From Halostella salina (lineage in GTDB: Archaea > Halobacteriota > Halobacteria > Halobacteriales > Natronoarchaeaceae), in assembly GCF_003675855.1 (NCBI RefSeq), contig NZ_RCIH01000004.1, positions 310,001-374,000 of the forward strand: a stretch of DNA of 64,000 nt. The letters run 5' to 3'. The translations under genes and the position numbers were made by a program. Shown here in pieces: positions 33,364-64,000 of the stretch. Under the pieces are notes generated by a model. It was not told the origin of the DNA. It did no database searches and saw nothing but the letters and a program-made list of their open reading frames with translations. Position 1 is the stretch's first letter; the number at the start of each line of letters is the position of its first letter.

Positions 33364-35310
33364 TCACTGCCGGAAATCCCACGGGTCGTCGTCCTCGTGG
33401 CGGCCGACGCCGTCGTACGCCGCCGTGACCCGGTCGACCGTCCCCGGGCGCGCCGGACGAGCGCGCGGGGCGTCGTCGACGACGCCGCCGGACCGGATCC
33501 CGGGAACGACCGACTGGAGCGCCCGGACGAACGTCACCGCGGGCGACCGGGCGAGTGTGGGTGTCCCCGGCACGTCCGCGAGCCGGCTGTCGACCGCGCC
33601 GGTCGGACGGTACGAGCGGGAGAGCCGGCCGTCGCCGTCGGCGTCGACTCCCGACACGCCCGCCCAGTAGTTTCCGCGCCAGACGTGCTGGACGTTGAAC
33701 TCGACGACCTGAACCGGACGCCCGTTGGCGACCACGTCGTTCCCGGTTACGCGGTTGGTTGGCAGGAACGACATCGCCCGGAACCCGCGGCGGTTGTACG
33801 CCAGCACGTTGCGCTCGTATCTGGAGAACGTCCCACGAACGCCGATCCCGTTGCGGTTGTGGAGGACCACGTTGTCGGCGACGTAGTTGGCCTGTCCCGC
33901 GACGAGGGCACCGTTCCGGTTGTTGTGCAACCGGTTCCCCGCGACGACCGCCCCGTACGACCGGTGCTCGACGTAGACGGCGTTCCAGGTGTCCTCGATC
34001 GCCGAGTCCACCACGGTCGTCCGGATGCCGTAGAAGTCGAACACGCCGACCATCATCCCCTCCATCCGAACGTCCGAGACCACCACGCCGTCGGACTCGT
34101 GGGCGTAGACGCCGACCTTCCCGCCGTAGAACGACGAGTCCCGGACGACGGCTCGCCCGCCGAGCGCGACCACGCCGATGAACCCGTCCTCCCACCGTTT
34201 CGTCCCGTACAGCGTGAGGTTCGACACGGTGACGTTCGGGCTGTTCCGTGCGATGACGCCGTTCGACGTGGTGTTGATACGGACCCGCGAGACGAGCGAC
34301 CGATCCGCGGTGTCGAACACGACGGCGGCGTCGCCGTAGCCGTGGACCTTCCAGATGTCGTAGTTCCACGCGTCCTCGGCGACGGGCACGTCGACGGGCC
34401 GGTCCGCCCCGCTCCGGTTCCCGCCGACGCCGGTGATCGAGAGGTCGACGACGGCGGTTCGGTTGGCCCCGACCGTGATCACGCTGCCGTTTCCGTTACC
34501 GACGACGTGAGTCTCGTTCTGTCCCGCCCCGCGGATCGTGAGCGGCTTGTCGACCCGGAGGTCGTCGACACGATGAGTGCCGGCCGGCACGCGGACCGTT
34601 GTGTTCGGCGGGGCCTGCTCGACGGCGTCGGCGAGCGTCGGCGCGTCGCGGCCGACGACAGTGGAGACCGGTCGGTCGCGCAGCGCCGTCGCGCGCTCGG
34701 CGGTCGCGTTCGCGCGGGCCAGCCGCCGGTCGACGGTGGCTTGCCACTCACTGGACGAGCGGTCGAGGCGGCCGACAGGAGCCGCCCGCGCGCCCGCCCA
34801 CTCCCGCACCTCGCCGCCGTATCGATCGGCGAACGCGGCGGCGTCGCGCCGCTCGGAGAACGGGACGATCGCCGCGTCGCGGGTCGGTATCGTCGCGTCG
34901 CTGTCGACGACGAAGTACGCCTCACGGGCCGGGACCCATTTCGTCGGTGCCGACTCCGGGGCGCGGAGGTGGCCCTCGTCGGTCAGCGACAGGTCGATCC
35001 CCGAGAAGTCCGAGACGTACACCCGCATCGGGGAGCCGAAGGCGTCCCCGCTTTCGGTCCGGAGGCTCGCGACGAGCGATGTGACTCCCCGGTAGCCGAC
35101 GACGTAGCGGTACTGCGAGTAGTACACCTCGGCTTTCGGGACCACGAGCGGGGAGCTGTCGGCCTCGCGGGCCACCTGATCCGGCAGCCCCGTCTGCTGG
35201 GTCCGCTCGAACGGCACCGCCGCGGTCCCGGTTTCGGGCGTGATCCAGAACGGCGCTGCGGCCAGGACGACGAGCAGGGCGAACGCGACGGCGAGGTGTC
35301 GCGAGCGCAT
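33364..35310 (-). CDS. nosD: NosL-NosD fusion, exported copper-maturation beta-helix protein
   Basis: 648 residues. An N-terminal hydrophobic signal/anchor (7-25), a NosL-like domain (about 55-175: PKAEVYYSQYRYVVGY, MRVYVSDFSG, WVPAREAYFVVDSD, IVPFSERRDAAAFADRYGG), then a right-handed parallel beta-helix (about 225-560) built of NosD-type repeats. NosD, with the NosF/NosY transporter encoded divergently 95 bp away, supplies the copper-sulfur cluster of nitrous oxide reductase. The CxxC of true NosL is missing and the whole protein has no cysteine. NosZ is not in the window. Confidence 0.85.
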   Translation of the reverse strand: MRSRHLAVAFALLVVLAAAPFWITPETGTAAVPFERTQQTGLPDQVAREADSSPLVVPKAEVYYSQYRYVVGYRGVTSLVASLRTESGDAFGSPMRVYVSDFSGIDLSLTDEGHLRAPESAPTKWVPAREAYFVVDSDATIPTRDAAIVPFSERRDAAAFADRYGGEVREWAGARAAPVGRLDRSSSEWQATVDRRLARANATAERATALRDRPVSTVVGRDAPTLADAVEQAPPNTTVRVPAGTHRVDDLRVDKPLTIRGAGQNETHVVGNGNGSVITVGANRTAVVDLSITGVGGNRSGADRPVDVPVAEDAWNYDIWKVHGYGDAAVVFDTADRSLVSRVRINTTSNGVIARNSPNVTVSNLTLYGTKRWEDGFIGVVALGGRAVVRDSSFYGGKVGVYAHESDGVVVSDVRMEGMMVGVFDFYGIRTTVVDSAIEDTWNAVYVEHRSYGAVVAGNRLHNNRNGALVAGQANYVADNVVLHNRNGIGVRGTFSRYERNVLAYNRRGFRAMSFLPTNRVTGNDVVANGRPVQVVEFNVQHVWRGNYWAGVSGVDADGDGRLSRSYRPTGAVDSRLADVPGTPTLARSPAVTFVRALQSVVPGIRSGGVVDDAPRARPARPGTVDRVTAAYDGVGRHEDDDPWDFRQ

Positions 35311-58679: not shown

Positions 58680-60580
58680 CCCGCGTCTCGCGGTACCGGA
58701 ACCGTCTAGACAATGGCTGGGACCAAGTGGTCGCCACAGTCCGCCCATACGGCCGCCGCGTGTTCCGGGACTACCGGGGCCTGTTCGTGTTCCTGCTCAC
58801 CTGTACCGCGGCGATGCTGCTCTGGCGGACCACGTTCTCGATCAACGACAACCTGACCGTGGCCAACGGGCTGGTGGCGCTTAGTGACGGCCGCCTCCAC
58901 GTCGTCAAGGCGACGTACGGCAACACCCTCGTCACTCCCGGAATGGCCGAACTCGACGGCCGTGCGTATCCACGAAACTTCGCGCACATCGTCGTCGCAC
59001 TCCCGGTCCTCTGGGCGTTCGACCTCGTCGCCGCCGTTGCCGACGTTCGTATCGCTCTCGCCGCGCTGTGGTCCCTTTCGCTGTTCGCCACCGTCAGCGT
59101 CGGCGGACGGCTGGTCGGCCGCCACCGGACGGTCCACCTGCTCGGCGGTGCGCTCGCGCTCGCCACGTTCGCCGCCAGCGTGGCGACTGCGACGCCGTTC
59201 CCGTACGAGCACCTCGCCTACCCCGCGCTGCAGTTCGCGACGGTTCTCGCTGCGGCAGCGTGTGCGCTCGTCGTCTACCGGCTCCTCGCTCATGCCCACT
59301 CGACGGACATTGGACTCGCGGCCGGCGTCGCCGCCGGCGTCGCCTCGCCGGCGCTGCTCTGGGCGACGATTCCGAAACGGCACGTGCTCACGGCACTGTT
59401 CGCGCTCCTGACGCTCTACTGCCTCTACTGGAGTCGTACGGCCGACAATGACTCGACGTATCGCCGGTATAGAGCAGTCGCCTACGTACCGGTGGGACTG
59501 ACTGCTTGGCTGAACGCGTCGGAAGGGCTGGTGCTATTTGTCGCGCTCGTCGTCGCCGACTTCGTTACTGCTCGGGACAACAGTATCCGAACGGTTGCGA
59601 TCGTCAGTGTGGGGTTTCTCCTCTCGCTGATCCCGTTTCTGCTGACGAACTACCTCCTCTCGGGGGATCCGTTTGCCCCACCGCGAATGCTGGACCGATA
59701 CGGTGGTGAAGCGGTCGGAGGAACCGTGACCGAAGAGATTCCGGGCGCATCGGAGGGGAGTGGCGACACTGGTTCTCAATCCGGGGACGGCCTTCTCGAC
59801 GGTATTCGGACTGGCGTCTTGTCTCCGGTATTCAGCATACTCGACAGAGCGATGCTCTTTGTGACATTTCTCGAATACGGCGTGACTGCTTCGATTCAGG
59901 AACCACAGCGATTGTATCACACTTTCGTACGAAGTGGATACTTCGATTTCTCGTCGCGCGGTGCGACCGGGCTCGCGATCAACGTCGCGTTTCTGGAGGC
60001 GCTTCCGATCGCAGGTGCGCTGGTCGCTGCACCATTCGTCGTCGGTCGGTCGCTCTATCGTCGACTATCGGCGAGTGTCCCGCTGGAGTTTCGGTCTCGA
60101 CCGACCGCTACTGCCGACATCTTCGCCGTGGTGTACGTGATTCTGATCATGCTGCTCTACATTCATAGACTCCCACTCTACTCCATGCTGACCGTCCGGT
60201 TCATATACCCGCTGTTCCCACTTGCGGTCTACGGCGTCGCACGCCTGCCCGCTGTCCGGACGACGGTGGCCGAGTGGGGAACGTGGCTCAGCTTAACCTA
60301 CGCCGGGAGCGTCTTCATCGGTGGACAGTTGGCCGTACTCGGGGTCGCGCTGGCGAACTACACCGCCGACGAGGCGATACAGGGACTCGCACTGCTGGGG
60401 CTTGTCGTCGCGTCGGGGATCGCCGTCTGGAGCCTTTTAGGGGCCTTCGACCGCGTGGACGGTCGGGCCGGGGCCGTACTGCTCGGTGTCGGAAGCGGGT
60501 TAGCGACCGTTCTGATGATCACCTTTGCGGTTTCGTTTTTCGGTCCGACCGCCGATTTCGCCCTTCCGATCGTGCCCTGA
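58676..60580 (+). CDS. Large polytopic membrane protein, GT-C-like
   Basis: 634 residues with about 11-12 hydrophobic helices and a large loop at ~325-385 rich in Gly/Asp/Ser. The general layout, with an early extracellular acidic stretch (RTTFSINDNLTVANGLVALSDGRLHVVKATYGN) after helix 1, recalls GT-C/ArnT-PMT-type glycosyltransferases or their haloarchaeal relatives; no catalytic motif is certain. Co-translated with the secreted protein. Confidence 0.65.
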   Translation: MTRVSRYRNRLDNGWDQVVATVRPYGRRVFRDYRGLFVFLLTCTAAMLLWRTTFSINDNLTVANGLVALSDGRLHVVKATYGNTLVTPGMAELDGRAYPRNFAHIVVALPVLWAFDLVAAVADVRIALAALWSLSLFATVSVGGRLVGRHRTVHLLGGALALATFAASVATATPFPYEHLAYPALQFATVLAAAACALVVYRLLAHAHSTDIGLAAGVAAGVASPALLWATIPKRHVLTALFALLTLYCLYWSRTADNDSTYRRYRAVAYVPVGLTAWLNASEGLVLFVALVVADFVTARDNSIRTVAIVSVGFLLSLIPFLLTNYLLSGDPFAPPRMLDRYGGEAVGGTVTEEIPGASEGSGDTGSQSGDGLLDGIRTGVLSPVFSILDRAMLFVTFLEYGVTASIQEPQRLYHTFVRSGYFDFSSRGATGLAINVAFLEALPIAGALVAAPFVVGRSLYRRLSASVPLEFRSRPTATADIFAVVYVILIMLLYIHRLPLYSMLTVRFIYPLFPLAVYGVARLPAVRTTVAEWGTWLSLTYAGSVFIGGQLAVLGVALANYTADEAIQGLALLGLVVASGIAVWSLLGAFDRVDGRAGAVLLGVGSGLATVLMITFAVSFFGPTADFALPIVP

Positions 60581-60798
60581 TACGTCCCCTGTTCTCCGGG
60601 TGCCAGGCAAGACTGGACTATCGGGGACTGAGCCAGTCGGTCTGAGTGGTTGTCTCTCAATGGAACCGGGACTCGACGATCTGTGGCCACAGCACTCCGG
60701 TCCGTACCCGCGTGCGCTACTCCCGCAGATACCACGGAACCGTCCTCCCCACGTGACTGCGATGTAATGCTTCCCCCTTCGCTCGGCGCCGCGTCTCG
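60581..60798. other. Gene-free interval before the integrated element
   Basis: About 220 bp with short unsupported frames only (the one at 60659-60767 codes a Pro/Arg-rich 35-mer). It separates the pilin locus from the first recognisable sequence of the integrated element. Confidence 0.5.
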
Positions 60799-60873
60799 TT
60801 CAAATCCCGCGGCCGTTGCTATTCGTGCTCACTTCGTTCACACAGAATAGCGGGCGCGACGGGACTTGACCAT
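60799..60873. repeat. T-arm-like inverted-repeat element, candidate attachment site
   Basis: GTTCAAATCCCG (60799-60810) and its inverse CGGGACTTGACC region (60861-60872) enclose a hairpin with arms GCTATTC (60819-60825) and GAATAGC (60846-60852) and a loop containing ctcacttcgttc. The outer arms are 70 nt apart, the same architecture as the two elements near tRNA-Tyr. It lies 40 bp past the 3' end of the integrase gene, where the attachment site of a tRNA-targeting element is expected. Confidence 0.6.
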
Positions 60874-60913
60874 CGCGCTTGCTTCTACTTTTCTGGGTTC
60901 GTGATTCATGATT

Positions 60914-61957
60914 TTATCTCTGAATCTCACTCCATCGCCGATCTGCCTTCTCGCGCTTCGAAGCGCGGTCGTAGTGCTTATCGAGGATCTGCGTGGACGC
61001 GTCGAGGCGGTCCGACACGATCCCGCGGGCGATCCCGTCGTTGCGGTACTTCGTCACCCGTGCCTTTCGCAGGTCATGCGGGGACCGCGTCGACGGGCAC
61101 TTGCACGCCGTGTTGTAGCTCGTCCACTCGCAGGTGTCCGGGTCCTTGTCGTGGGGGCACTCGTCACCGATCTGGCACGGCTTCGTCCACCGATACACGA
61201 TATTCCGCATCGTCGACGGATTGACCCGCCCCTGCTTCGTCGTCACCAGCGGGTGCCGCCCCTCGTCGTCGGTCTGCCGCTCGCGGGGACCGTCGATGTA
61301 GTCCTGAAGCGTCTGCGCCACACGGTCGCTCACCCGGTTTACGCGCTCGCCGCCACCGTCGTTCTTCAGCGGCGTTCCCGACTCCGGGCGGTGAACGAAC
61401 TCGACCGTCGGCTTCCGGCCGTCGAGGTCGAGATCCCGCAAGTCGAGCGCCCGGACGCCGCCGAGTCGCGCGCCCGTGTGCCACAGCAGCAGGAAAACGA
61501 CGTGGTCCCGGCTCGCGTACTCGTACCGGTCCAGGTATTCGAGGATCGGCGGGATCCGCTCGGGGACCATCTGACTGTCGCTCACTTCGTCGCCCGGCGA
61601 CAGACTCGGCAGCGGGACCTTCAGGTACAGGTCCTCGTGGACCGCCTCGATCTCCCCGCAGAACCGCAGGAACGACCGGACAGTGGTCAGCACCGAATGC
61701 AGCGTCTTCGGGGCAATATCTTCGTCCTGCCCCTCGGAGTAACCCCCCTCACGCCGCCACACCCGGAAGTGGTACAGGTCGCGGCCGGTCAGCTCGTTCA
61801 TGTTGTCGATCCCGCCCTCCTCGCGGCACCACTCGACGAACGCCCGGAGGTGACTCCGGTGCGACTTCCGGGTCCACTCCGCTGAGTCGTCGCGCATCGA
61901 ATCGAGGTGGATCTCGACCGCCTGCTCGGGCGTGATCGGCTCCAGGTCGTCACTCAC
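60914..61957 (-). CDS. Tyrosine recombinase (integrase) with Cys/His-rich insert
   Basis: 347 residues from GTG at 61955-61957 (a second GTG at 61966 adds three residues). An N-terminal SAM-like core-binding domain (~15-115), then the catalytic domain with Arg in TGARLGGVRAL (~residue 170), Lys in the following hairpin, the HxxR box SPHDLRKARVT and the nucleophile Tyr in LDKHYDRAS. Between Lys and HxxR lies a cluster CxxxxxC-PH-...-C-...-CKC that may bind zinc. Oriented with its 3' end toward the presumed attachment site. It overlaps the preceding small gene. Confidence 0.93.
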   Translation of the reverse strand: MSDDLEPITPEQAVEIHLDSMRDDSAEWTRKSHRSHLRAFVEWCREEGGIDNMNELTGRDLYHFRVWRREGGYSEGQDEDIAPKTLHSVLTTVRSFLRFCGEIEAVHEDLYLKVPLPSLSPGDEVSDSQMVPERIPPILEYLDRYEYASRDHVVFLLLWHTGARLGGVRALDLRDLDLDGRKPTVEFVHRPESGTPLKNDGGGERVNRVSDRVAQTLQDYIDGPRERQTDDEGRHPLVTTKQGRVNPSTMRNIVYRWTKPCQIGDECPHDKDPDTCEWTSYNTACKCPSTRSPHDLRKARVTKYRNDGIARGIVSDRLDASTQILDKHYDRASKREKADRRWSEIQR

Positions 61958-62252
61958 GGCGACCACCCAGCACGTCGATCGCTTCCTGAAGCGTTTCCTC
62001 GTCAGCGCCGTTTGCCAGGTGTAGAACCTCGCGGACCAACCGATCGCGCTTACTCTCGTGGTCCGGCCACGGCCACGGCGTCCCGCGGACCTCCATCCAC
62101 AGGCGGTACATCGCGTGTTCGCCGAAACCGATGTCGACGCGCTCGCCGTCGGCCGTCGAGACCGCCAAGGTGAACTCGCCCGGTCGGTTCTTTCCTGCCG
62201 GACCGTAGCTCACGCACGGGTCCGTATCGCGGGCCTCCAACTCTCGGGTCAC
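61950..62252 (-). CDS. Small element-encoded protein, unknown
   Basis: 100 residues from GTG at 62250-62252. VSYGPAGKNRPGEFTLAVSTADGERVDIGFGEHAMYRLW suggests a small alpha/beta domain. The GTG shares bases with the previous gene's stop (GTGA) and its own stop overlaps the integrase start. Family not recognised; typical of small halovirus operon genes. Confidence 0.65.
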   Translation of the reverse strand: MTRELEARDTDPCVSYGPAGKNRPGEFTLAVSTADGERVDIGFGEHAMYRLWMEVRGTPWPWPDHESKRDRLVREVLHLANGADEETLQEAIDVLGGRRE

Positions 62253-62491
62253 GCTGATCCCTCCTCGCCGAGCGTCGCCTGATCGTCGTCGATCCCGCGG
62301 CGCTGGGTCGGCTGGATCTCCCGCAGGTCGTCGGCCCATCGCTCCAGGCGTTCCTGTACCTGCTGCATCTTTGCGTCGAGTTCGTCGACGGTGGCCGCCG
62401 ACACACTCGCCTTGATCTTGTCGCGGTCGTCCGTCGACGTGCCGCGGGTCATCTGCACCGTGATCTCGATCCCGTCGTCTTCGTCGCTCAT
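62249..62491 (-). CDS. Small coiled-coil protein (DUF7389 type)
   Basis: 80 residues, ITVQMTRGTSTDDRDKIKASVSAATVDELDAKMQQVQERLERWADDLREIQ, with a central amphipathic helix. Resembles the DUF7389 family seen in haloviral clusters. Overlaps its neighbours by 4 bp on both sides. Confidence 0.6.
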   Translation of the reverse strand: MSDEDDGIEITVQMTRGTSTDDRDKIKASVSAATVDELDAKMQQVQERLERWADDLREIQPTQRRGIDDDQATLGEEGSA

Positions 62492-62793
62492 GCCGTCACC
62501 TCCGGATCAGTCACGTACTTGAACCCGCGACTCGGCGGGTCATCGGGCAGCTCCTCGTCGGTCTCCTCCAGTGGGGTGAACACGATCCGGCCCTCCTCGA
62601 CGGTGCCGATGACGCCGCGGGCGATCACGCGCTCGCCGTCACTGAAAAGGACGGTCCGGCCCGGCTCCGTCCGCCGGGGCGTGCCGCTGACACGCCAGTA
62701 CGGCGCGTGGCCGACCACGACTTCGCCCTTCATCTTGTGCGCGAGCGTGTCGCGGTCGGCCTGAATCAGCACGTCGTAGGTGTCGCCGGTCAT
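62488..62793 (-). CDS. Small element-encoded protein, unknown
   Basis: 101 residues, beta-rich: YDVLIQADRDTLAHKMKGEVVVGHAPYWRVSGTP, then VLFSDGERVIARGVIGTVEEGRIVFTPLEE, a strand-turn pattern reminiscent of ASCH/PUA-like small domains, though no signature residue proves it. Translationally coupled to its neighbours (ATGA overlaps). Confidence 0.6.
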   Translation of the reverse strand: MTGDTYDVLIQADRDTLAHKMKGEVVVGHAPYWRVSGTPRRTEPGRTVLFSDGERVIARGVIGTVEEGRIVFTPLEETDEELPDDPPSRGFKYVTDPEVTA

Positions 62794-63032
62794 GCTGACC
62801 TCCCTTCGTACGGCCCGTACGGCGTCTCCAGTTCCACCTCGTCGCGCTCCCGGAGGTTCCCGGTCGCCCGGTTCCGGAGCTTGTGAAACACGCCGTCGGA
62901 CCCATCCCTACGAGCGCACTTCTGACACCAGAAGTGGTGATTCGTCGGCTCCCACGACCGATGACCGCGGGGACACACCCATTTCCACCGATCCGACTTA
63001 TCGTCCAACGCGATGGTCGCTCGACCAGTCAT
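62790..63032 (-). CDS. Small zinc-finger protein
   Basis: 80 residues from ATG at 63030-63032: WKWVCPRGHRSWEPTNHHFWCQKCARRDG contains CPxGH...CxxC, enough for one zinc site in a zinc-ribbon-like fold. The first gene of the five-gene minus-strand string including the integrase. The longer reading upstream runs through the structured region and is rejected. Confidence 0.68.
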   Translation of the reverse strand: MTGRATIALDDKSDRWKWVCPRGHRSWEPTNHHFWCQKCARRDGSDGVFHKLRNRATGNLRERDEVELETPYGPYEGRSA

Positions 63033-63125
63033 CACCGGCGACTGACGAACGGCATGGCAAAAGGCCGAAGCCTTACGGGGGTAGTGAAAGTGAAACTGAA
63101 CGTGTTGCGGCCCAAAGCCCACAGA

Positions 63126-63156
63126 TTCGACAGGTCGGTGTGCCGTACCTGTCGAA
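63126..63156. repeat. 31-bp palindrome
   Basis: TTCGACAGGT at 63126-63135 and ACCTGTCGAA at 63147-63156 are perfect inverse copies, with CGG/CCG extending the symmetry inward. It may be an operator or recombination-related site of the element. Confidence 0.7.
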
Positions 63157-63193
63157 CCGCGGTTTAGTAGGCGGGTGAAAGTGCTATGCTGTC

Positions 63194-63309
63194 GTGCCGG
63201 GGATTTTTCCCGGCGCGGACTGCTTGCTTGCATGGGTTTCTCGGAAACCCGCTCGGGCCGGTGCCCCAAACACCGGTCCGACTTTCCTTCGGAACCAACT
63301 GGCCCGAGC
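63194..63309. ncRNA. Candidate structured RNA or DNA hairpin cluster
   Basis: Four helices can be drawn: (a) GTGCCGGG/CCCGGCGC at 63194-63216 with a 7-nt AU-rich loop and one G-U pair; (b) GGGTTTC/GAAACCC at 63234-63250 with a TCG loop; (c) outer GCTCGGGCC (63251-63259)/GGCCCGAGC (63301-63309); inside (c), GGTG/CACC (63260-63274) and GGTCCG/CGGAACC (63275-63296). Helix (c) with its two inner hairpins forms a compact three-way junction. Strand and expression are unknown; it may equally be an origin or packaging site. Confidence 0.4.
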
Positions 63310-63341
63310 AGCGTCTCCGTCACCCGACAGTATCACCCTGG

Positions 63342-63394
63342 GGTAATAAAATTTGATACTGTATGGTATTACAAACGGCCCAAATAGTATTACC
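63342..63394 (+). promoter_or_regulatory. Promoter/operator region of the repressor-like gene
   Basis: GGGTAATAAAATTTGATA (63341-63358) is a good TATA-like tract. GGTAATA at 63342-63348, GTATTAC at 63366-63372 and GTATTACC at 63387-63394 share the same core in both orientations and look like binding sites for a dimeric regulator, perhaps the winged-helix protein itself. Confidence 0.5.
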
Positions 63395-63444
63395 TATCGG
63401 GATGTCACCCGGAGTTATGGCTGTTGAATGTGACTCTCGGGCGA

Positions 63445-63708
63445 ATGCGCCCGCTGGTGTCGTGGATGACTAAGTCCGATCCCGCGCTCCTCGAATTCTT
63501 CGAGGAGGTCGGTATTGCGATGCCGCCAGCGGTGGTTTCGTACAATATTGATGGGGTGTCTCACCCGACCGTGAAACGGCGGCTTCCGCTTCTGGAAGAA
63601 AACGGGCTGCTGGAAAAGGTTGACTCGGACCGGGGATACTACCGCATCACGGACCGCGGCCGGGCGTACCTCGCCGGCGACCTCGACGCCGACGATCTCG
63701 AAACGTAG
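63445..63708 (+). CDS. PhiH1-repressor-like winged-helix protein
   Basis: 87 residues from ATG at 63445: MRPLVSWMTKSDPALLEFFEEVG matches the start pattern of the phiH1 repressor family of haloarchaeal viruses (MRxxxxWMTxxDxxILEF). The DNA-binding wing follows: VSYNIDGVSHPTVKRRLPLLEENGLLEKVDSDRGYYRITDRGRAYL. Probably the lysogeny-type regulator of this element. A start at 63466 would cut the conserved N-terminus. Confidence 0.8.
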   Translation: MRPLVSWMTKSDPALLEFFEEVGIAMPPAVVSYNIDGVSHPTVKRRLPLLEENGLLEKVDSDRGYYRITDRGRAYLAGDLDADDLET

Positions 63709-63754
63709 TCGGATGAACGACCGAACCACGCCGACTGAAAGCGCCGCTGCTCGC

Positions 63755-64000
63755 TCACTCGTCGAGCGCCGGAACGTCGATCTCCTGTTTCGCCGTACTC
63801 CACTTCCCCCAGTAGTTGATGTAGGTCTGGTGTGAGAACCGGCCGTGTTCGTCCATCTCGGAAATTGTCGGTAGCTTGCCGAGTTCACGGACAACCCTGC
63901 GGAACTCCTCCCGAAGTTCGTCTTTCGTCACGCTGTCCTGTTGCCGGGGTTCGATCCCGGCAGCGCGTAGCATCCTGTTGTAGTTGCCAAACACGTTCAT
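63755..64000 (-). CDS. Homing-endonuclease-associated-repeat protein (partial)
   Basis: At least 81 residues; the 5' end may continue past 64000 although ATG at 63998-64000 is a possible start. One full repeat: VTKDELREEFRRVVRELGKLPTISEMDEHGRFSHQTYINYWGKWSTAKQE, the ~50-residue DNA-binding repeat found with homing endonucleases and in haloviral proteins; GNYNRMLRAAGIEP before it looks like the tail of a preceding repeat. No nuclease motif is visible in the part shown. Confidence 0.72.
   Translation of the reverse strand: MNVFGNYNRMLRAAGIEPRQQDSVTKDELREEFRRVVRELGKLPTISEMDEHGRFSHQTYINYWGKWSTAKQEIDVPALDE

Follow-up and report, generated by a model that had tools for sequence, protein, structure and literature searches.

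A covarying leader RNA at the start of haloarchaeal integrase operons and its probable role in a sense-antisense lysogeny switch

We analysed a 64,000-nt stretch of haloarchaeal DNA (hereafter the window), towards the end of which an integrated element carries an integrase operon on the minus strand and, diverging from it, a repressor gene on the plus strand. The genes of interest, and the signals next to them, are as follows (helices P1 and P4 belong to the RNA described below):

60914-61966, minus strand: SNJ2-type tyrosine integrase, at the end of the operon (PHROG 1, E=8e-26)
62790-63233, minus strand: first ORF of the operon, 147 aa, of which the C-terminal 80 aa are a zinc-finger protein
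63231-63233, minus strand: conserved start codon, immediately 3' of P4
63345-63351, minus strand: TATA box TTTTATT of the sense promoter (leader and integrase operon), about 30 nt before P1 (-31 to -26 from P1 in 53 dereplicated relatives)
63445-63708, plus strand: divergent winged-helix repressor of the PhiH1 RepR type, 87 aa (PHROG 2440, E=2.3e-26)

The integrase is 56.7% identical to SNJ2 Int and 57.4% identical to Halfgib1 Int; PHROG 36874 (152 aa) matches the zinc-finger part of the first ORF (positions 67-142); and homologues of the repressor, which lies 126 nt from the leader, are annotated as PhiH1-like repressor in HRPV-9 and HHPV4 and as repR in phiCh1. AT-rich repeats (GGTAATA / TATTACC, 86% inverted repeat pairs) at 63342-63394 overlap the sense TATA box and precede the repressor gene, and are probable operator sites of the winged-helix repressor. 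Convergent with the repressor gene is a minus-strand ORF at 63755-64000 that matches PHROG 22655 (unknown function, E=3.5e-11). At the other end, DNA at 60776-60900 adjoining the integrase resembles the 3' half of a tRNA (TTCAAATCCCG) and is a possible attachment site; no second copy of the integrase-side flank was found in the assembly, nor was the far end of the element, the contig ending 1.3 kb past the window. Within the operon, 63084-63096 and relatives carry the motif TTTCACTTTCAC, followed by CTTTTA-type sequence, some 50-90 nt before the zinc-finger start. A coding explanation of this motif (FHFH) was rejected, as the reading frame differs between elements; being conserved as DNA yet varying in frame, it is probably a second, internal promoter.

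A previous, sequence-only reading of this DNA had described a dense set of helices at 63126-63309, without a gene and between two divergent transcripts, and had offered a structured RNA, a replication origin or a recombination or packaging site in explanation. All of its structures were found where it had put them: a 31-nt palindrome (63126-63156, with 10-bp perfect arms), one hairpin around 63196-63218 and another of 7 bp at 63234-63250, and a three-way junction (63251-63309) closed by a perfect 9-bp stem, GCTCGGGCC/GGCCCGAGC. The divergent transcripts are likewise in place, with the winged-helix repressor on one side and the integrase operon on the other. The region is not free of genes, as a 147-codon open frame starting at the conserved AUG (63233, minus) crosses 63126-63233 and continues into the zinc-finger protein. 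The density of helices is real: on either strand, none of 200 dinucleotide shuffles folds as well as the region (z = -4.22 and -4.88), and the leader alone reaches z = -4.75. The conserved unit, however, is a different one, consisting of 63189-63320 on the minus strand plus the TATA box at 63345-63351 and leaving the 31-nt palindrome outside. In a second genome of the same genus (G003), the sequence at the palindrome is unrelated and the palindrome is not conserved; a different hairpin, CCTACGG-TTC-CGTAGG, was seen there at a similar place. Because both strands fold well, comparison was required to identify the strand of the RNA.

A blastn search with the window RNA against plasmids and phages gave no match, and relatives were reached through the genus relative and then through a consensus from other families. 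G003 is 83% identical over 63186-63328, and in both genomes the shared sequence is oriented on the minus strand, with a TATA box about 30 nt before its start and the same zinc-finger gene downstream of it. Further copies, with the loop GGTG-TTNGGGG-CACC, came from searching 394 Halobacteriales genomes. Two covariance models were built, R1 from 14 of these copies with the window excluded and R2 from 67 sequences with the window among them, so that R1 serves as the independent test of membership. Both match the window, and the parts of the RNA are:

63189-63319, minus strand: match to the RNA family models, covering the leader and first codons (R1, E=8.7e-11; R2, E=1.4e-15)
63320, minus strand: transcription of the sense leader predicted to begin here or at 63321, from alignment with the mapped start of phiH1 T4 (34556)
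63313-63319, minus strand: 5' strand of P1, CGGAGAC, partner of 63242-63248 in the sense RNA (sense MFE structure; covariation in 7/7 pairs)
63242-63248, minus strand: shared middle segment GTTTCCG, the 3' strand of P1 and for the most part also a strand of P4 (folding, covariation)
63251-63309, minus strand: three-way junction with its 9-bp stem, 63301-63309/63251-63259 (folding of the sense leader)
63277-63293: hairpin P2 inside the junction (folding of the sense leader)
63260-63274: hairpin P3 inside the junction, GGTG-TTTGGGG-CACC (folding of the sense leader; pairing in 96-99% of cells, with double changes)
63234-63250, plus strand: P4 hairpin GGGTTTC-TCG-GAAACCC, interpreted as the 5' end of a predicted antisense RNA (antisense MFE structure, covariation, wobble asymmetry)

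By model R1 the family is present in 180 of the 394 Halobacteriales genomes and in 53 of 95 genera, and all 30 positive genomes of a phylum sample belong to Halobacteriales; neither some 200 sampled genomes outside Halobacteriales nor the bacterial loci retrieved with the P4 pattern (Flavobacterium, Cohnella, Bacteroidales and others) gave a model match. Rfam returned no family for 60000-64000 at E<=1 and, for ten relatives at E<=0.5, one tRNA only, outside the RNA. Exact-pattern scans of IMG/VR gave five contigs, two through P4 patterns without a model match and three through the P3-loop pattern that carry the loop alone in otherwise unrelated sequence, and we therefore claim no IMG/VR member. 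Named carriers are plasmid pHK2, N. magadii pNMAG01, Halfgib1, SNJ2, HRPV-9 and Humcor2; matches are weaker in HHPV4 (E=5e-4) and phiH1 (E=3.6e-4, R2) and marginal in phiCh1 (0.013) and Harhisp1 (0.016), and in BJ1 and Humcor1 the architecture was recognised by eye only. Single genomes hold up to about 11 matches (G014, G030 and G017 are among those with 8-11); two of three copies inspected in G017 (L153, L154) lie without a repressor or integrase nearby. That the RNA family exists is close to certain.

In a rolling-circle-type virus, intergenic hairpins might be taken for a replication origin or for a packaging or recombination site of the element, as had been suggested from the sequence, but the mapped origin of SNJ2 lies at another place in its genome, where a DNA hairpin follows orf19/rep (PMC13107129), and the present element lies instead upstream of the integrase operon, beside the repressor. 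Tailed viruses with other replication systems also have the family: the myovirus phiH1 and, on a weaker match or on visual inspection, phiCh1, BJ1 and Humcor1. With nothing pointing to packaging or recombination either, we find explanations of this kind barely credible.

Genomic context was compared at 68 copies. A divergent winged-helix gene is present in 62/68, with 100-145 nt as the usual distance from its start to P1; in 44/68 the strand of the RNA carries a tyrosine integrase further downstream; and P4 is followed immediately by a start codon, AUG 63233 in the window and (C)ATG in 66/68. In SNJ2 the conserved AUG is where orf3, which opens the orf3-orf2-int operon (PMC8371274), is annotated to begin, and the RNA is thus a 5' leader of about 85-115 nt. 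Comparison of these contexts shows that the integrase operon of the window, in an integrated pleolipovirus-like element, begins with the predicted minus-strand RNA as its structured 5' leader. Haloarchaeal mRNAs are mostly leaderless, which makes a 5' leader notable. A free-standing small RNA acting in trans, processed off the leader before the AUG, would also fit the strong fold, the promoter of its own and the number of matches per genome; it is nevertheless very improbable given the constant distance directly upstream of the AUG (66/68 contexts) and the divergence from the repressor (62/68). At two loci (L075, 5154-5876, and L146) a TnpB-like protein (GVDIGEYNLYTACP...) follows the leader instead of the integrase operon, and in L146 this protein is fused in frame to the leader-encoded N-terminus.

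Across alignment A3 (67 matches), the 34 model pairs hold in 89% of cells, and both sides of a pair have changed in 246 cells against 75.5 in shuffles (0/500 shuffles as high), where the cells are sequences, not events, and the shuffle tests ignore shared ancestry. Sliding the partners by one to three columns removes the covariation signal. The sequence-only reading had staked itself on conservation and covariation in related elements; both were looked for and found, and its structured RNA is strongly supported. P1, the helix that closes the sense leader and contains the first bases of the RNA, shows 35 double changes by itself against 7.8 expected (0/500 shuffles), and P4, which stands outside the model, shows 37 against 11.4 (0/500). 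P4 uses the 3' strand of P1, so that the two helices are mutually exclusive within one molecule, and each has changes that are missing from the other: at columns 5-139 and 6-138 for P1, and at column 144-152 (AU in 34, GC in 21) for P4.

Non-canonical pairs were counted in 49 dereplicated rows. Inner P1 has 38 G.U and 2 A.C pairs, as expected for a sense RNA; P4 has 1 G.U and 42 A.C pairs, and these A.C pairs become G.U when read on the antisense strand, which is what folding of P4 in an antisense RNA would leave. T-to-C drift in GC-rich genomes could account for part of the A.C excess at two of the three P4 positions. Outer P1, whose 3' strand is shared with P4, is mixed (11:16 G.U:A.C). In predicted ensembles, P1 is preferred on the sense strand in 49/53 relatives, and in 42/53 the sense strand leans towards P1 rather than P4 more strongly than the antisense strand does (p=3.7e-7); on the antisense strand alone there is no clear preference, with P4 favoured over P1 in 27/53. 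In the window, P1 closes the junction and P4 is open in the sense MFE structure, and P4 is the 5'-terminal hairpin in the antisense one. The two exclusive helices are under strand-specific selection.

An alternative is a bistable, riboswitch-like leader that acts in cis without any antisense RNA, P1 and P4 alternating in the sense RNA to control translation. The sharing of a strand between two covarying helices is what such a device would show, and P4 abuts the start codon in the classical geometry of aptamer and expression platform. However, the sense RNA is predicted to hold P1 and only rarely P4 (the 49/53 above), the non-canonical pairs of P4 are A.C on the sense strand (1 G.U : 42 A.C) and weaken P4 there, and this explanation does not account for the AT-rich box in the ORF or the phiH1 antisense start described below. 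In view of the wobble asymmetry and the phiH1 antisense RNA Tant, we consider it unlikely.

Signals for an antisense promoter lie inside the first ORF:

63203-63208, plus strand: predicted antisense promoter TATA box ATTTTT, in codons 9-10 and between GC-rich palindromic arms (fixed spacing; codon bias)
63234, plus strand: base preceding the AUG, where the antisense RNA is predicted to start (analogy with phiH1 Tant)

An AT-rich box stands at a constant distance from the AUG across the family, reading TTYAW on the antisense strand at -30 to -26 relative to the base that precedes the AUG, which is the same spacing as that from the sense TATA box to P1; the box of the window, 26-31 nt from 63234, marks a putative promoter as a sequence signal. 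The third base of codon 10 is A or G in a ratio of 47:4, where codons of these types further along the genes have 79:128, and otherwise unrelated first proteins (for example the MarR-like SNJ2 Orf3, the TnpB-like protein and a 32-residue ORF) have their first 14 or so residues in common. This segment, P5, had been considered as an RNA hairpin, but its spacing and codon usage indicate constraint at the DNA level, and we read it instead as GC arms around an antisense TATA box; the P5 box deviates from the usual TATA consensus in many members (TTCAA). Constraint on DNA could be carried further, the repeats and the palindrome round the inner AT-rich box being operator half-sites and the RNA folding a by-product. 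The region does sit in a repressor/operator locus, the TATA-like box of P5 has palindromic arms, and half-sites co-vary between elements in the way that regulator specificity would; P5 alone may well be an operator. For the element as a whole we think this improbable: P1, P2 and P3 covary as nested helices with variable loops and lengths, slid controls lose the signal, and the 38 G.U against 2 A.C of inner P1 are favoured only by an RNA on that strand.

Mapped transcripts of phiH1 bear on both predicted starts. Its early lytic transcript T4, opposite repR, has a mapped start at 34556 in the phiH1 record, and the R2 match begins at 34557, one base past it. According to a review, Rep and T4 act against each other, Rep by shutting T4 off and T4, when transcribed, by repressing rep (PMC4284463). 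Like the window, T4 has a divergent RepR about 126 nt away and a match beginning one base after the start; unlike it, T4 has an expanded inner and P4 part and repH, not an integrase, downstream. Among phages with mapped starts T4 is the clearest model match, yet the record annotates no antisense transcript for it, and a distinct box is missing at the corresponding distance. A leader of 151 nt belongs to T1, the other early transcript, whose annotated start is 38582. The first bases of this leader, GAGCAGG, pair with CCTGCTC, the overlapping GCTC pairing with a GAGC that abuts the AUG; the first protein of T1 begins MPNHDSQGNKG, with AAA as codon 10. In phiCh1 the equivalent of T1 P1 is GAGCAAGCG/CGCTTGCTC, altered on both sides. 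The T1 leader and its antisense RNA, Tant, were reportedly described by Stolt and Zillig in 1993. The annotated start of Tant, 38732, is the base before the AUG of the T1 gene, and the RNA spans the whole leader and renders T1 susceptible to cleavage (review PMC4284463).

T1/Tant shares with the family a P1 at the transcription start, a shared middle segment, a last pairing strand set against the AUG, AAA at codon 10, a divergent immunity gene and an antisense start one base before the AUG. It differs from the window in its longer leader, in its other inner helices and in that its antisense RNA is experimental where that of the window is predicted; the covariance models do not detect the T1 leader, which is a member by architecture only. 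Mapping in phiH1 thus supports, on two different leaders, that transcription begins at P1 (T4) and that an antisense RNA begins at the base preceding the AUG (T1/Tant), and by analogy we infer that an antisense RNA is made in the window element and that it silences the operon there.

We consider it probable that these parts form a conserved sense-leader/antisense-RNA lysogeny switch at the start of the early or integrase operon of a temperate haloarchaeal virus-like element. On comparison, the conserved minus-strand RNA starts at P1 about 30 nt past its TATA box, folds the three-way junction and, as a leader, ends at the first AUG, opposite the PhiH1-type repressor. In such a switch, a second promoter buried in the first codons of the first gene would drive an antisense RNA from the base before the AUG back across the whole leader towards the repressor gene. 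P1 would close the sense leader and P4 would be the 5'-terminal hairpin of the antisense RNA; that both are built from one segment would account for the conservation of two mutually exclusive helices. If the two RNAs paired, the leader would become open to cleavage or its start codon would be masked, and the operon would stay silent in lysogens, as is reported for phiH T1/Tant; the repressor would shut the sense promoter. Antisense read-through into the repressor gene, in the manner of lambda PRE, is a guess.

The integrase operon leaders of SNJ2, pHK2, Halfgib1, HRPV-9 and HHPV4 are like that of the window in place, architecture and start codon, with an SNJ2-type integrase downstream and a PhiH1-like repressor divergent; SNJ2 differs in its first gene, the MarR-like orf3 in place of the 147-aa zinc-finger protein. 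Antisense RNAs lying over the leader or first gene of an opposing operon, with both partners folded, are known from lambda (PRE/OOP) and from plasmid R1 (CopA/CopT), whose working is similar to that proposed here; there is no sequence relation, and the promoters here are archaeal. In the open-access literature we found no description of a leader RNA of a pleolipovirus int operon and no transcript reported for any member's leader, and phiH T1/Tant was the single case of such a switch.

A broader proposal, towards which we lean only slightly, is that unrelated haloarchaeal temperate viruses (pleolipoviruses, myoviruses, siphoviruses and integrated elements) share one ancient leader/antisense lysogeny switch, in which a promoter embedded in coding sequence would force the same N-terminal peptide on unrelated first genes. 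To our knowledge, few RNA-based regulators of archaeal viruses are known, and nearly half of the haloarchaeal genomes sampled carry this RNA family, often in several copies. If the switch is real, the phiH antisense RNA of 1993 would be one example of a widespread device, exact promoter and start positions would be in hand for the tractable SNJ2 and pHK2, attention would return to which archaeal RNase cleaves the duplex of sense and antisense RNA, and the leader would serve as a marker for spotting integrated elements.
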